This document shows positions 2,792 to 38,795 of a stretch of 64,000 nt of DNA, one piece after another (position 1 is the stretch's first letter; each line of letters opens with the position of its first letter). Under the pieces are notes generated by a model. The model did no database searches and was not told the DNA's origin. It saw only the letters and a list, made by a program, of their open reading frames with translations. This DNA is from Clostridiales bacterium (lineage in GTDB: Bacteria; Bacillota; Clostridia; Saccharofermentanales; Saccharofermentanaceae), in NCBI GenBank assembly GCA_017958365.1, contig JAGDCV010000043.1, positions 1 to 64,000 of the forward strand, given 5' to 3'. The translations under genes were made by a program, and so were the position numbers.

Positions 2792-4528
2792 TTATGCATC
2801 TATCTGATCGATGACCAGCTGTCTTGCCTCCTCAGGAGGAAGCGGGCGGCCCCAGATGAATCCCTGTATCAGATCGCAGCCGATATTCTGCAAAGTCTCA
2901 AGCTGCTCTTCTTCCTCGACACCTTCGGATATGACATCAAAGTGCATGATGTGTCCCAAGGATATGATCGCGGCAACATACTGCACGGATGATTCGCTGG
3001 TATTCATCTTATCGATGAATGACTTATCGATCTTAAGAAGATTCGCCGGGAACTTATTAAGGTAACTTAAGGATGAGTAGCCGGTTCCAAAATCATCGAT
3101 AGCGATCTTTATACCCATGTCCTTCATGGCATTAATGCATTCGATCGCCTTATCAGCTGAATCGATCATTACGGACTCGGTAAGCTCAACTTCCAACTGT
3201 CCCGGAGGAACGCCGTATTCGTCTATGGCTTCTTTAAGTTCTTCAAGGAAGCCCTTCTTCATGAGGTGACGCGCGGACACGTTAACGCTTATAGAGATAT
3301 CCGTTCCCGTCTCTTTGATCAGCGAACCCAGGAACTCGGCGGACTTCTTTAATACACACATATCGATATTATCGATAAGACCGACCTTCTCGGCCACGGG
3401 AATAAAATCACCGGGACTTATGATGCTTCCGTCAGAGTCTTTCATACGGGCAAGAGCCTCGAATCCGCGAAGTCTGTGAGTGATATCAAACTGCGGCTGG
3501 AGATTGTAGAATACAGTATCATTCTCCAGTGCCTCACGAAGCTTGCTTTCCATCTCGATGTTGTATTCGATGTTCCTGATAAAATCAGTCTTAAATCTTA
3601 ATATCTGATTATCTATACTCTTTGTCCGCTTAACTTCATACATAGCTGCATCGGCATAAGAGAAAATCGAATCGGCAGTTCTCTCATCCTCGGGGAACAA
3701 AGCAAAACCGAAGCAGGCATTCAGATGGAAGTCGAAGTTATCGATGGAGATCTTCTCTTCGAGAGATTCCTTATACTGATTGATTGTATTATAAACAGTC
3801 TGTTCATCTGACACACCGCTTATTATGAGCTTGAACTCATCACCGCTGTGACGGGCGATAAAATCATTGGTACCCGTCTTGCCGCTGTCCGCAAGTTCCA
3901 TCCATCTTGCACCGATAAGCTGAAGTACTCTGTTACCGATCTCCTGACCAACGGTATCATTAATGCTCTTAAAATTATTGATATCGATCGACACCTGTGC
4001 AAACGGGATATCATTCTTTATGTTAGCCTTCCTTAACTGGGAACATGCATATGCATTGGGAAGGCCCGTGAGGTTATCCTTGACAGCCTGTTCAACAAGC
4101 TTCTTCTGGAACCTTCGTACCTTTCGGTTATTAACAAACAGGATGGAGATTGCCACCATCATGAGAAGGTTCGAGAAAACACCGGGGATACTCATGTAGC
4201 TGTTACTTTTCACAAGAGTGAGTATCATCATCGGGAACTGCAATGTCATCATTATAAGTGACGTTATGTATCCTAATCTGTCGAAGAACACAACAAGGAA
4301 TATGATGGAGATGTTGGAGATGGCCGAGAACACGCCTGCGAAAACGGAAACAGGTATATGCGCCTGCCCTACAGGTATGATTCCTTCCGAACTTGATGTG
4401 GTCCTTACAAGATATGAGACCACGTAATAGAGGATGATGAGAAGAACATACAGGCTCTTTGATGCCTGCTGCTTCTCAGAGATACGCAGTAGTGTCTCCT
4501 CAATGGTATTTGTGATCTTTTTGTACAT
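2792..4528 (-). CDS. Membrane GGDEF/EAL protein, probable c-di-GMP phosphodiesterase
   Basis: A 578-residue cyclic-di-GMP turnover enzyme. Residues 25-135 contain four or five membrane segments with little room for an external sensor. A GGDEF domain follows (about 145-310); its signature is SGDEF at 228-232, so the first Gly is Ser while the catalytic Asp/Glu remain. The EAL domain (about 325-570) keeps every metal and catalytic residue I can place: E357 of EAL, N416, E448, D478-D479, K499, E535 and Q555. It therefore looks like an active phosphodiesterase. Whether the SGDEF domain makes c-di-GMP, only binds GTP, or regulates the EAL domain cannot be read from sequence. The start has a purine-rich GGTGGGGTG site eight bases upstream. 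It is divergent from the response regulator at 4650 and monocistronic. Confidence 0.88.
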   Translation of the reverse strand: MYKKITNTIEETLLRISEKQQASKSLYVLLIILYYVVSYLVRTTSSSEGIIPVGQAHIPVSVFAGVFSAISNISIIFLVVFFDRLGYITSLIMMTLQFPMMILTLVKSNSYMSIPGVFSNLLMMVAISILFVNNRKVRRFQKKLVEQAVKDNLTGLPNAYACSQLRKANIKNDIPFAQVSIDINNFKSINDTVGQEIGNRVLQLIGARWMELADSGKTGTNDFIARHSGDEFKLIISGVSDEQTVYNTINQYKESLEEKISIDNFDFHLNACFGFALFPEDERTADSIFSYADAAMYEVKRTKSIDNQILRFKTDFIRNIEYNIEMESKLREALENDTVFYNLQPQFDITHRLRGFEALARMKDSDGSIISPGDFIPVAEKVGLIDNIDMCVLKKSAEFLGSLIKETGTDISISVNVSARHLMKKGFLEELKEAIDEYGVPPGQLEVELTESVMIDSADKAIECINAMKDMGIKIAIDDFGTGYSSLSYLNKFPANLLKIDKSFIDKMNTSESSVQYVAAIISLGHIMHFDVISEGVEEEEQLETLQNIGCDLIQGFIWGRPLPPEEARQLVIDQIDA

Positions 4529-34380: not shown

Positions 34381-34386
34381 TCATTA
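34361..34386. terminator. Perfect inverted repeat spanning two convergent stops
   Basis: TAATGATCA-N8-TGATCATTA has nine-base perfect arms. Its right arm contains the TGA of the MraY-like gene and the TAA (complement) of the coiled-coil gene. No strong T-run follows on either side, so it may work as a bidirectional pause or RNA-end-protecting hairpin rather than a classical terminator. Confidence 0.45.
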
Positions 34387-35223
34387 AAGGAACTCGGAGA
34401 AATCATCCAGAGTATCGGAATCAGAAGCTATAGCAGACTTGGAGTCATCCTCGGACTTTGTGTCCTCAGGCTTTGTCTCCTTCTTTGCTTCGTCCTTCTT
34501 TGACTCATCTTTCTTTGAATCATCCTTTGAAGCGGCATTCTCTTCGGCTTCCTTACGCTTAGCCTCAACCCATGCCTTATATTCTTCGTCGCGCTCTTTC
34601 TTAGCCTGTGCGTCTCTCTTGGCATTCTCCTCAGCATTCTGCTTACGGATCTTCTCATTCTCTGCCTTACGCTTCTCGGCTTCTTCCTTCTTGCGATTTT
34701 CCTCTTCTTCTTCGAGCTTCTTTCTTGCCTCTTCCTCTGAAGCAGCCTTCTTAGCCAAAGTCTCCTCGAGTGCTTTCTGCTGGGCAAGTCTTCTTTCTTC
34801 TCTTGCCTGACGCTTAGCATCTTCTTCGGCCTTCTTAGCTTCCTTCTCGGCCTTCTCCTTCTCGATGACTTCACGCTTCTCATCGCTCATTGCCATGGAA
34901 GCAGCAGTCTTCTGCAAAGTCTCGATGGATTCAGGTGCCATAACCTGCTTCTTGATCTCTTCCATCTTCTTACGTGATTCTTCAGCAACACGCATCTCTT
35001 CGACAGCAACTTCCTGTCCGAGATTCTGAAGCTTGCTGATCTCTTCATTCGAGATCTGCATTCTCTCCGCTTCAGGCGCCAATGTCTTCTTGAAGTCGCC
35101 GCCCTTAATATAGACAGATTCAACGCCCGGATTGGTAAAATCCGATGCTGCATTAACTATATCCTTGATATCAGGCGTCTTGGTACCGGGTAATATCTCG
35201 TACTTTTTTTCTTCTCTGCCCAT
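34384..35223 (-). CDS. Charged coiled-coil protein of the TerY-P-type cluster
   Basis: A 279-residue cytoplasmic protein. Residues 1-55 are a mixed N-terminal segment (EILPGTKTPDIKDIV, NPGVESVYIKGGDF). Residues about 56-225 are nearly continuous coiled coil of Lys, Glu, Ala and Arg. Residues 226-265 are a Lys/Asp/Ser-rich flexible stretch, and the protein ends in DTLDDFSEFL. That end matches the C-terminus of the vWA protein two genes upstream (DMDDFMKFMEE). It begins six bases after the PP2C gene and is the last gene of the operon. The composition defeats simple homology assignment. By context it may be a scaffold or substrate of the kinase/phosphatase pair; this is inference. Confidence 0.75.
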   Translation of the reverse strand: MGREEKKYEILPGTKTPDIKDIVNAASDFTNPGVESVYIKGGDFKKTLAPEAERMQISNEEISKLQNLGQEVAVEEMRVAEESRKKMEEIKKQVMAPESIETLQKTAASMAMSDEKREVIEKEKAEKEAKKAEEDAKRQAREERRLAQQKALEETLAKKAASEEEARKKLEEEEENRKKEEAEKRKAENEKIRKQNAEENAKRDAQAKKERDEEYKAWVEAKRKEAEENAASKDDSKKDESKKDEAKKETKPEDTKSEDDSKSAIASDSDTLDDFSEFL

Positions 35224-35229
35224 ATTCGT

Positions 35230-36369
35230 TTATCCCTTTATAATAAATATTTTAATCAATAAGAGTATTATTGCAACAAGTTCAGCGAGTGCAATCACCT
35301 TAAGAAGCATAGGCGTATTGCTCTTCTTTGAAGGAGCAGGTGTCTCCGGCTTCTTCTGTTCAGCAGCTGCTTTAGGCTTCTCACCGGTAAAGACCGCAGG
35401 TGCCGGAGCTTTGGGAACTGCCTTAAGAGATTCTTCACCCTCAGGCAATTCATCACCGACGGCAACGGGTTCTGCCGGAGGATTCGAAGCGCATGCCTCC
35501 ATGACAGCCTTCGCCTTCTTAACCTCAGGGAACATCGCTGCCTGAAGCTCCTTAAAAGTCTCATTAGCTCTCGGGAAAGCTTCCGCTTCCTTGGGAAGAG
35601 CATTCGAATCAGGAGCACTCGTCCCATCGAAATACACGATACCGAACGAAGCATCATCACTGTTGTTTGACGAACCTACGATATACTTGGAAAGGATCGA
35701 CTCGATCTCACTCTCGCTTTGTTCCCTGCCCTTAGAAGCGGATTCAACCATACGTGCAACAACAGGCTTAACAAGACCCGTGTTCTCATCATATACATTA
35801 TCCTGAACGCCGTCGGTCATAAGGGCAACACCGTGATAATCGTCGATAGTCGTCTTTACGATCCTCAAGTAATCTGCAGCATGCGGAACGGTTACGAAGA
35901 AAGTCGTTCCGTCCTTCTCATTCTGAGGCATGGTAACGGGATGTACGCCTGAGTGTGATACTCCAGCAATGAGTCCGTCTCCCAGATGACCTATGAGCAT
36001 TCTTCTGTCCTTAACTGCACAGAACAGGAGAGTACATGATAGTCTCTCGAGCTTATCGAGTTTATACTGCTCCATAAGGTTCGCAAAACCGACATGTATC
36101 GCTGCAATTACCATGGCACGTACGGCGGCTTCCCTGTTCTCGTTATAAAGCGCATCAAAATGATCGATAACAAGATCTGAAACCGTCTTACAGGCTGACT
36201 TGGAACCGAATCTCGCGTGAGTATACTGCTTTGATCCTGCACCGTCGCATACGACTACGCAGGATACCCCGTCTCTTTGTACGGCCAAAGATGAATCTTC
36301 ACACGGAACACCACGGTTGTGGTGCTTCTGGCCCATTAATGTAACTGCTGATACTGTGATCCCTGACAT
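35230..36369 (-). CDS. PP2C-type protein phosphatase with C-terminal membrane anchor
   Basis: A 379-residue metal-dependent Ser/Thr phosphatase. The PP2C domain (about 1-245) shows the metal residues ED at 24-25, CDGAGS with D42-G43, the central GHLGDG with D131, and MTDGVQDN with D186 and D190. A Pro/Ala/Glu-rich linker of about 100 residues follows, and a single hydrophobic segment near 352-375 ends the protein. The catalytic domain should therefore be tail-anchored on the cytoplasmic face. The N-terminus (MGQKHHNRGVPCEDSS) is that of the PP2C subgroup found with vWA and kinase genes. It lies three bases after the vWA gene and should oppose the kinase encoded first in the operon. Confidence 0.9.
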   Translation of the reverse strand: MSGITVSAVTLMGQKHHNRGVPCEDSSLAVQRDGVSCVVVCDGAGSKQYTHARFGSKSACKTVSDLVIDHFDALYNENREAAVRAMVIAAIHVGFANLMEQYKLDKLERLSCTLLFCAVKDRRMLIGHLGDGLIAGVSHSGVHPVTMPQNEKDGTTFFVTVPHAADYLRIVKTTIDDYHGVALMTDGVQDNVYDENTGLVKPVVARMVESASKGREQSESEIESILSKYIVGSSNNSDDASFGIVYFDGTSAPDSNALPKEAEAFPRANETFKELQAAMFPEVKKAKAVMEACASNPPAEPVAVGDELPEGEESLKAVPKAPAPAVFTGEKPKAAAEQKKPETPAPSKKSNTPMLLKVIALAELVAIILLLIKIFIIKG

Positions 36370-36372
36370 CTG

Positions 36373-37101
36373 TTACTCTTCCATAAATTTCATAAAGTCA
36401 TCCATATCGACCGATTCGCCTTCAGGCTCGGTTGATATGTTGTAAAGTGCATCATCACTCATGCCGGAAGATACGACAGAGGAACTTGATGAGCCAAGGA
36501 ATTCAAAGAGTTTGCCGAAGTCTCCTGATGTAACGGAAATAGGCTCTTCTCTCTTTACCGAGACTTTCTTCAATATATCAAAGTCAACGCTGTTACCTAC
36601 ACCGATGTTGAAGATAACGAGCTTATCGTCCTTCTCAAGCTCATTACAAGCCTTGATGGCAAGTTCCATGTTGGCCATGGCATTAGGACCCTGAGGAGCA
36701 CCGTCCGTAATGACGACGAGCCAGGGCTGATAGTACTTGATACCCTGCTCCTTATATCCTTCCTTACGTGCATTGAGAAGCTCGAGTGCGGTAAGGATTC
36801 CTTCACCGATAGGAGTCATTGTTGTGGATGCCTTGATCTCGGGAAGACCTTCCTCGGAGATCTTACCGAAGGGCATTACGATCTCAACAGAAGAACCGAA
36901 AGTAACGATTGCTATGTCAGTAGCTGATCTCGTATCATCATTTGCCTTAATGGATGCGATAAAGTTTGTAAGACCCTGATTAAGCTGCTGGATCGGTGCA
37001 CCCATCATCGAACCGGATGTATCAAGACAAAAACAGATAGGAAGTCTTCTCTTAGTACTGCTTCCAAAATCCGATGCATTAATGTTGTTGTTCTCAGCCA
37101 T
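36373..37101 (-). CDS. vWA-domain protein, TerY-like
   Basis: A 242-residue cytoplasmic von Willebrand A protein without signal peptide. The MIDAS residues are complete: D27, S29 and S31 in CLDTSGSM, T96 in TTMTPIGEG and D133 in VITDGAPQG. The domain spans about 18-205, close in length and motif to the TerY proteins of tellurite-type stress clusters. A flexible acidic tail follows, ending DMDDFMKFMEE, similar to the end of the coiled-coil protein. In TerY-P triads such a protein sits with a PP2C and a kinase, exactly as here. It probably displays metal-dependent protein binding. Five bases separate it from the kinase gene. Confidence 0.9.
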   Translation of the reverse strand: MAENNNINASDFGSSTKRRLPICFCLDTSGSMMGAPIQQLNQGLTNFIASIKANDDTRSATDIAIVTFGSSVEIVMPFGKISEEGLPEIKASTTMTPIGEGILTALELLNARKEGYKEQGIKYYQPWLVVITDGAPQGPNAMANMELAIKACNELEKDDKLVIFNIGVGNSVDFDILKKVSVKREEPISVTSGDFGKLFEFLGSSSSSVVSSGMSDDALYNISTEPEGESVDMDDFMKFMEE

Positions 37102-37106
37102 AACAA

Positions 37107-38795
37107 TTATCTCCTGTTCTTGAACAGACCTCTAAGTCCGCCATCATTCTTACCACCCTGATCGTCCTTCTTCTTATCTGCCGGCTTAGGTACCGGATCT
37201 GTGTTGATATAGAACTTATTGTACGAACCTGGTGTAGACTTTTGGAACGTGGGGCCCGCCGTGGGCGAAGGCTTAGGTGCGAACGGAGAATCCGTTGCCG
37301 TCTTGGCAGGAGGAGTGAACCTCGGCTTAGCGATCGGATCCGGATCAGTCGCTACATAATCCATCTTAGGGAAAGCCTTGTAGGACTCGGGATCCGTGTA
37401 CTCTTCAGCCGAGAGAGCTTCCTTATAATTAAGGACAGCCTCATACCACTTTAAAGCCTCAAAAGAAGTACCGTCATGGAATGTGGCATAGAGCATTGAT
37501 CTCAATTCATCAGGAAGGTACTCCCATATATGGTTATAACCGCCCTTCGGAATATGTTCATCCGAAGAGTTTTCAAGATCGTAAGGGAAATTCTTCGAAA
37601 GGATCTCCTCGCGCAAGGTCTCGGCACCGTTTCTTGTTGCATAAGGATGCAGACCGCAGAACAGCAATGAGAAAACAAGCATGGCGATAGAATAATCCTC
37701 GTCCTCCAGCCGTCTTAAGAACGAAGCAAAATCCGTACCCCAGAGTCTCGGGTCCGTGAATTCCTCTGTTCCGACGGGACAAGGGAGATTATCAACCTGC
37801 ACGCTGTCCATGTCTATAAGATAGATTGCATTTGATGAATAGATGAGAGCATTCTTCATCTGGATATCGCCTGCGATGATTCCGTTCATGTGAAGATAGA
37901 TGTACTTCTCAAGAAGGTCGGCAAGAGTGCTGACGATATCCAGTCTCTTCCAGTTAGGGAACGAATTAAGAAGTGCATCGGGACCGTCAAAGACGTTACC
38001 TAATGTTCTTCCCTTACCCATGATCATCGTGTAGCCGACAGGAACGCCTCTGTAGTACAGAAGGTCCTTGGGCCAGCAAAGACCAACGGCATTGATACCC
38101 ATCTCGACCTGAGTCTGGAGTTTCTTCCATCTTAACGGAGTGATGATTCCCTTGTGGTAGATCTTCGCAACTATCTTGGGATCATTAGTCGTAAAGACCA
38201 TACCCTCGGCACCTGAACTGATTCTCTTCTCAAGCGTTATCTTCCTGCTGGTACCGGTGATAACGGTATCACCGACATTACAGTAGACGGGCACATCAAG
38301 GTACTTATCTACAGTTGCAAGAGGACTTAACTTCGGTGCGGGCATCTCTGCGAGTAACTGGGAGATACCGTGATAGTAGTTGATCTCTCCCTCGGGGCTT
38401 ATGACGCAGATATCTCCAATATAAACGGGAAGCTTCTCGCGGATCCTGCTTATGAATACACCCGTAGAAGCCGTGACTATACATGCATCAGATATCATTG
38501 AGGCCTTCTCGAAGAAGTCCTCTGTATTGATCACCTGAACTGAATGTAAAAGATTATCCGGAAGCAGCATGGCTGCAAATTCACGCATAGCATTAGAAAC
38601 CGGAACAGAATTATCATCTGCCTGATGGATAACGCAGTAATGCAGTAATTTGAAGGCTTTGCTTACATAAACATCTTTGTGACCTTTTGTCACAATATCA
38701 AGAAATTCGGTAAGAAGCATGGTTGAACCGAATTCCTTGATAAAAGAGTAATCAACAATCAAAGCCCCGTAATTGTCCAATTGCTCTAATGCCAT
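37107..38795 (-). CDS. PIN-like domain fused to an atypical Ser/Thr protein kinase
   Basis: A 562-residue cytoplasmic fusion. Residues about 8-150 look like a PIN/NYN-type fold: LIVDYSFI with D15, VYVSKAF, and SDACIVTASTG with D103. Residues about 185-440 are a divergent protein kinase: a glycine-rich loop SSGAEGMVF, K211 in VAKIY, a catalytic loop GIIAGDIQMKN with D310 and N315, and the metal Asp D328 in IDMDS. The activation segment PVGTEEFTDPRLWG resembles that of kinases in vWA/PP2C triads. The tail (about 470-562) is Pro/Thr-rich with many SP/TP sites and ends in basic GLRGLFKNRR. Active-site residues are intact, so kinase activity is likely. Nuclease activity of the PIN-like part is uncertain, since only two acidic residues are convincing. 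It opens the operon and appears to be translated from a leaderless mRNA. Confidence 0.85.
   Translation of the reverse strand: MALEQLDNYGALIVDYSFIKEFGSTMLLTEFLDIVTKGHKDVYVSKAFKLLHYCVIHQADDNSVPVSNAMREFAAMLLPDNLLHSVQVINTEDFFEKASMISDACIVTASTGVFISRIREKLPVYIGDICVISPEGEINYYHGISQLLAEMPAPKLSPLATVDKYLDVPVYCNVGDTVITGTSRKITLEKRISSGAEGMVFTTNDPKIVAKIYHKGIITPLRWKKLQTQVEMGINAVGLCWPKDLLYYRGVPVGYTMIMGKGRTLGNVFDGPDALLNSFPNWKRLDIVSTLADLLEKYIYLHMNGIIAGDIQMKNALIYSSNAIYLIDMDSVQVDNLPCPVGTEEFTDPRLWGTDFASFLRRLEDEDYSIAMLVFSLLFCGLHPYATRNGAETLREEILSKNFPYDLENSSDEHIPKGGYNHIWEYLPDELRSMLYATFHDGTSFEALKWYEAVLNYKEALSAEEYTDPESYKAFPKMDYVATDPDPIAKPRFTPPAKTATDSPFAPKPSPTAGPTFQKSTPGSYNKFYINTDPVPKPADKKKDDQGGKNDGGLRGLFKNRR

Follow-up and report, generated by a model that had tools for sequence, protein, structure and literature searches.

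The window analysed here is a stretch of 64,000 nucleotides from a Clostridiales bacterium, and it carries four minus-strand open reading frames arranged head to tail between positions 38795 and 34384. The first three encode a kinase, a vWA protein and a PP2C phosphatase, and the fourth a charged protein with a short conserved N-terminal motif. The coordinates of all genes and features are collected in Table 1. The intergenic gaps measure 5 and 3 bases between kinase, vWA and PP2C, matching the three to six bases of the original prediction, and a further 6 bases precede the fourth gene.

Table 1 Genes and features of the four-gene locus (positions in the window)
Feature	Position	Strand	Description
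Kinase gene	37107..38795	(-)	562 aa; PIN-like domain, YegI/TerY-P-type Ser/Thr kinase, disordered basic tail
PIN-like N-terminal domain	38346..38795	(-)	Residues 1-150; D15, F48 and K49 nearly invariant
Kinase domain	37386..38264	(-)	~residues 178-470; K211, D310, N315, D328, D330
Kinase C-terminal tail	37110..37385	(-)	Ends GGLRGLFKNRR; no cysteines
TerY/YegL-type vWA gene	36373..37101	(-)	242 aa; full MIDAS D27, S29, S31, T96, D133
Further features of the vWA protein			FLGSSSSS segment; DDFMKF tail
PP2C phosphatase gene	35230..36369	(-)	379 aa; C-terminal TM helix, tail-anchored (predicted)
PP2C C-terminal TM helix (predicted)	35233..35313	(-)	~residues 353-379; hydropathy 2.92 at residue 359
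Fourth gene	34384..35223	(-)	279 aa; short N-terminal motif, charged helix, C-terminal DDFSEFL
N-terminal motif KKYEILPGxxxPDIKxIxxAASDFxxPG	35125..35205	(-)	From an alignment of 18 and a listing of 106 loci
E/K/R/A-rich helix	34549..35049	(-)	Single-alpha-helix-like charge pairing, no heptad signal
C-terminal motif DTLDDFSEFL	34387..34416	(-)	Present in most orthologues from the window's genus

The phosphatase and the vWA protein are readily recognized by their Pfam profiles (PP2C_2 PF13672, E 7.6e-33; vWA PF00092, E 6.5e-16). The kinase matches Pkinase (PF00069) weakly in the window (E 0.01), and of two relatives one passes the Pfam cut-off (L052, 1.3e-9) and one falls below it (L054, 8.9e-6). 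Compared with the PDB, residues 170-471 of the kinase model, which have low pLDDT, matched protein kinases with VIA Z scores of ~10-11 and an rmsd of ~5. The catalytic or MIDAS residues of all three proteins had been noted as intact, and they are invariant among relatives: those of the kinase in 115/115 sequences of the family alignment, the MIDAS of the vWA protein in 113/113, and E24, D25, D42, G43, D131 and D186 of PP2C in 112/112.

TerY-P triads are known from comparative genomics, and the presence of the three families with their sites intact supports the proposed assignment of this set as TerY-P-like. As defined together with the CoCoNuTs, a TerY-P triad consists of a TerY-like vWA, a PP2C and an STK-zinc ribbon protein (PMC11090510). 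The zinc ribbon that defines the type is missing here: at least four Cys after residue 470 are found in 0/112 kinases, and the window kinase has no Cys after residue 480. The unit was also proposed to stand alone, and indeed the assembly, at 80% completeness, contains neither TerB, TerC nor TerD. Further differences from the defined triad are the extra fourth gene and the lack of linkage to Ter or restriction genes. PADLOC gave only weak kinase-core matches at the locus; the similarity to the STK-OB defence kinase is weak and confined to core residues 288-338 (E 0.0043).

A fold search with the full-length kinase returned kinases only, and for this reason the N-terminal part (res. 1-155) was modelled alone, with 14 sequences. 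The resulting model has a pLDDT of 88. PIN domains or PIN-fold proteins fill its top six VIA rows, with Z 8.0-8.4 and an rmsd of 3.2-3.8 over 114-119 residues; SMG6, a T. thermophilus domain (3ix7), AF0591 and an M. jannaschii domain lead the PDB matches. Utp24 and VapC follow at Z 6.8-7.5, and then Rossmann-like methyltransferases at ~6; the best Foldseek E-value is 2e-3. Comparisons of its sequence profile with those of intact PINs place the domain in the expected register at values below significance (HMM E 0.11-0.14, hhalign E 0.02-0.05). A PDB sequence search with the N-terminal profile found nothing, and a Pfam profile search with the window kinase gave no PIN match. The predicted structure agrees with the PIN-like domain that had been proposed ahead of the kinase, with structural matches of moderate strength.

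The kinase is present in 108/115 genomes of the window's GTDB family, which comprises MAGs named Saccharofermentans, Clostridiales or Ruminococcaceae, and in 62/62 of the good assemblies. A culturable relative, Ruminococcaceae strain KHP2, also has the locus. Every one of the seven family genomes without it is less than 90% complete, and real losses may be among them. Elsewhere in the order, 1/73 genomes has a kinase match, a weak one to the kinase core. Outside the family, the kinase N-terminal domain was not found among 341 genomes sampled from the class, and the N-terminal motif of the fourth gene gave noise-level matches only (291 class genomes). The four-gene unit is core in its family and absent from the remainder of the order.

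To assess linkage, we fetched 100 loci from distinct family genomes, three of which stop at a contig edge before the fourth gene. The fourth gene lies beside PP2C in all 97 readable genomes and in the window (98/98). The order kinase-vWA-PP2C-fourth gene is likewise kept in 98/98, with a single insertion between vWA and PP2C, so the arrangement is not due to chance. The link of the fourth gene to the other three, as first proposed, is therefore upheld, and no relatives with an unlinked copy were seen. The insertion is a block that includes a response regulator together with a probable sensor kinase, a two-component system, found at L117 and L196 (both G051, contig C1), and PP2C and the fourth gene still adjoin beyond it; an apparent loss of PP2C in L117 was rejected on these grounds. 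Apparent absences of the fourth gene in L057, L073, L076, L092 and L113 were also rejected as start, frame or stop artefacts of ORF calling. The L113 copy has an in-frame stop after 36 codons (near base 4293), which is either a sequencing error or the mark of a decayed copy.

The surroundings of the locus are conserved across five genera, with SIR2, MutS-like and sometimes LysA genes upstream, and MraY-like, ArgS and PepF genes downstream. The locus is a fixed chromosomal site among housekeeping genes, not an island. Where the LysA gene (diaminopimelate decarboxylase-like) is present, as in L037, L039, L047-L054 and others, it separates the MutS-like gene from the kinase; sister genera and some members of the window's genus have it at this place, the window does not.

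The four proteins differ in their degree of conservation. Compared with the window copy, vWA has a mean identity of 80%; the kinase and PP2C average 52-53%, and the fourth protein averages 38%. The identity of vWA exceeds that of ArgS in 14/15 comparable loci, some of which are duplicates of one genome. By this measure, conservation of the vWA protein equals or exceeds that of arginyl-tRNA synthetase. It is the highest among the four, which suggests that the protein has several binding partners.

The closest relatives of the unit are sporadic TerY-P triads whose kinases carry both a PIN domain and a zinc ribbon. These occur in Clostridia, Lysinibacillus, Fusobacterium and Paenarthrobacter (L174, L178-L180, L188 on Lysinibacillus capsici pFN9B, L189 in Paenarthrobacter and L190 in Fusobacterium), in ~6/397 genomes of the phylum or on plasmids. 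Several of their kinases combine a PF13638 PIN domain at or above cut-off with Pkinase and a treble-clef zinc ribbon. They share with the window unit the order kinase-vWA(-vWA)-PP2C and the N-terminal PIN, but their PIN is intact, a C-terminal zinc ribbon is present, and their spread is patchy or plasmid-borne. No homologue of the fourth gene was found in them; the fourth gene of the Lysinibacillus plasmid triad was considered as a relative and rejected, as it encodes a DnaJ-like protein. In a midpoint-drawn tree of kinase domains, which has some long branches, the family kinases form one clade (100/100) that joins the PIN-kinases (99/93), with exact branching inside supported at 85/75; YegI and the HHH-type kinases stand apart. 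Since the family clade joins the sporadic PIN-kinases, the PIN-kinase fusion is probably ancestral, and the family has probably lost the zinc ribbon and the PIN catalytic residues. The fusion had been described as an addition of this system, which is not supported, as sporadic TerY-P triads elsewhere carry it.

Several of the sporadic loci have features of their own. The gene just upstream of the PIN-kinase in L174:3529-4518, L182:590-1453 and L190:4403-5311 combines an N-terminal helix-turn-helix with another PIN-like domain, which is degenerate (E 5e-24 to 5e-19 against the PIN profile), and is perhaps a regulator. The PIN-kinase L182:1471-3234, from outside the family, has no zinc ribbon and a TM helix at its end, and may be a parallel to the window type. 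One genome has tandemly duplicated, adjoining PIN-kinases followed by two vWA genes (L178:162-3852 and L185). L175:5211-13778 contains a vWA-PP2C-kinase triad in which the kinase has TM and repeats. After the triad come a large coiled-coil-like protein and two small ones of ~95 aa with a WXG100-like appearance.

The E. coli YegL-PphC-YegI system is also related, with 35% identity for the vWA protein, 27% for the kinase and a related PP2C, and YegL starts with an SDF motif. It differs in its order (vWA-PP2C-kinase), in the HHH domain after the kinase, and in having neither a PIN domain nor a fourth gene. PphC dephosphorylates YegI in E. coli, the nearest tested precedent, as cited in PMC13232886.

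These comparisons bear on whether the locus could be a regular TerY-P module for stress or against phage, of the kind represented by the tellurite, CoCoNuT and STK-OB systems, that happens to be common in the family. We regard this as unlikely. Sporadic plasmid-borne PIN-kinase triads do have the same three components in the same order, and a connection of TerY-P with restriction and defence is documented (PMC11090510). However, both the zinc ribbon and TerB/C/D are missing. In every good genome of the family, the unit occupies a fixed place surrounded by housekeeping genes, without patchy spread, and the constraint on its vWA gene is stronger than that on ArgS, unlike what is seen for fast-evolving defence genes. 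A limited literature look-up found no report of a TerY-P triad as a universal housekeeping locus.

The fourth protein is defined by a 30-residue N-terminal core, KKYxxxPGxxxPDIxxIxxAASDF, common to all orthologues. In the window's genus, this motif is followed by a long E/K/R/A helix. The protein has a hypervariable middle and conserved ends. The original prediction of a charged coiled-coil protein stands as to charge and linkage, and is not supported as to the coiled coil. Specifically, the heptad pattern scores z 0.2 against shuffles, and near 0 in most orthologues of the genus, whereas opposite-charge pairing at i/i+4 in the helix reaches z 5.8. Strong pairing of this type is typical of single alpha helices, and the segment looks like a charged single helix. 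Such a helix could serve as a passive rod or membrane spacer that sets the distance between the membrane-bound enzymes and vWA, the protein being neither substrate nor regulator. The charge pattern and the variable middle fit this idea, but in three sister genera the protein has only 114-135 aa and keeps the motif without the helix. Spacing cannot therefore be the common function, and we consider a purely passive role improbable.

The C-terminal DDFSEFL of the fourth protein resembles the vWA tail (DDFMKF; DDFFKFMEE), a weak resemblance with shuffle p ~0.001-0.02 in many related rows and non-significant values in others. The broader idea that the fourth protein copies both terminal motifs of vWA (ASDF and DDFxxF) is retained as no more than a lead: it is suggestive in the window's genus, and weak or absent in sister genera.

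As for the PIN-like domain, the family has L/F/M and R/K/S where the PIN catalytic site has its E and D. D15 is the sole PIN acid retained, and the domain is probably not a nuclease. That it acts as a PIN ribonuclease switched on by the kinase and phosphatase, with RNA cleavage as output, is very improbable given these substitutions, despite the PIN-like fold, the D15 kept in 111/113 readable rows and the intact PIN of related triads.

Two features point to the membrane, where the kinase and phosphatase had been placed. The predicted TM helix of PP2C has a hydropathy above 1.8 in 98% of 112 orthologues. The kinase tail ends in a TM helix in 17/28 sister-genus orthologues, and nearly all other tails carry a basic/aromatic motif (KKKFFGLF, GFGRFF, GLFKNRR), including 79/84 in the window's genus. 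We infer that the short GLF-type tails bind the membrane.

Our analysis suggests, with moderate confidence, that the locus is passed on vertically within the family and encodes a core phospho-switch, one that goes back to a PIN-kinase/vWA/PP2C (TerY-P-like) triad and has a housekeeping role rather than one in defence. Sets of this kind occasionally travel on mobile elements, but here the set is fixed and always present in one family of gut bacteria. It therefore probably serves as a basic control circuit of the cell surface, and not as a defence cluster. In such a circuit, the kinase and phosphatase would sit together at the cytoplasmic face of the membrane. The PIN-like domain would have given up RNA cutting for docking or sensing, and the Mg-binding vWA protein would act as a hub that joins the substrate to the enzymes. 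Docking of the fourth protein would rely on its N-terminal motif; in the window's genus, its rigid charged helix would present the DDFxxFL tail. This tail may compete with or copy the vWA tail, or the fourth protein may itself be the phosphorylated output. The housekeeping role of the circuit would concern the state of growth or of the envelope.

More tentatively, the circuit may have arisen from a mobile conflict module of TerY-P type, taken up a single time by the ancestor of the family, that became an indispensable kinase/phosphatase circuit at the membrane. Under this scenario, the RNase domain would have turned into a sensing or docking domain, membrane-targeting tails would have replaced the zinc ribbon, and a new motif-bearing partner would have joined as adaptor or output, with vWA as the hub.

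What is new is a domesticated, zinc-ribbon-less form of the triad with a degenerate PIN and membrane-directed kinase tails, together with a highly conserved vWA and a fourth protein whose defining feature is a short N-terminal motif. The real surprise is not the PIN fusion, but a TerY-P-like triad as a core housekeeping locus of a whole family. A core, single-copy and strongly constrained triad offers a stable background for studying the function of the vWA/PP2C/kinase trio. It shows how an enzyme of conflict systems, a PIN nuclease, may turn into a non-catalytic signalling domain, and the defined fourth partner could be the missing substrate or adaptor.
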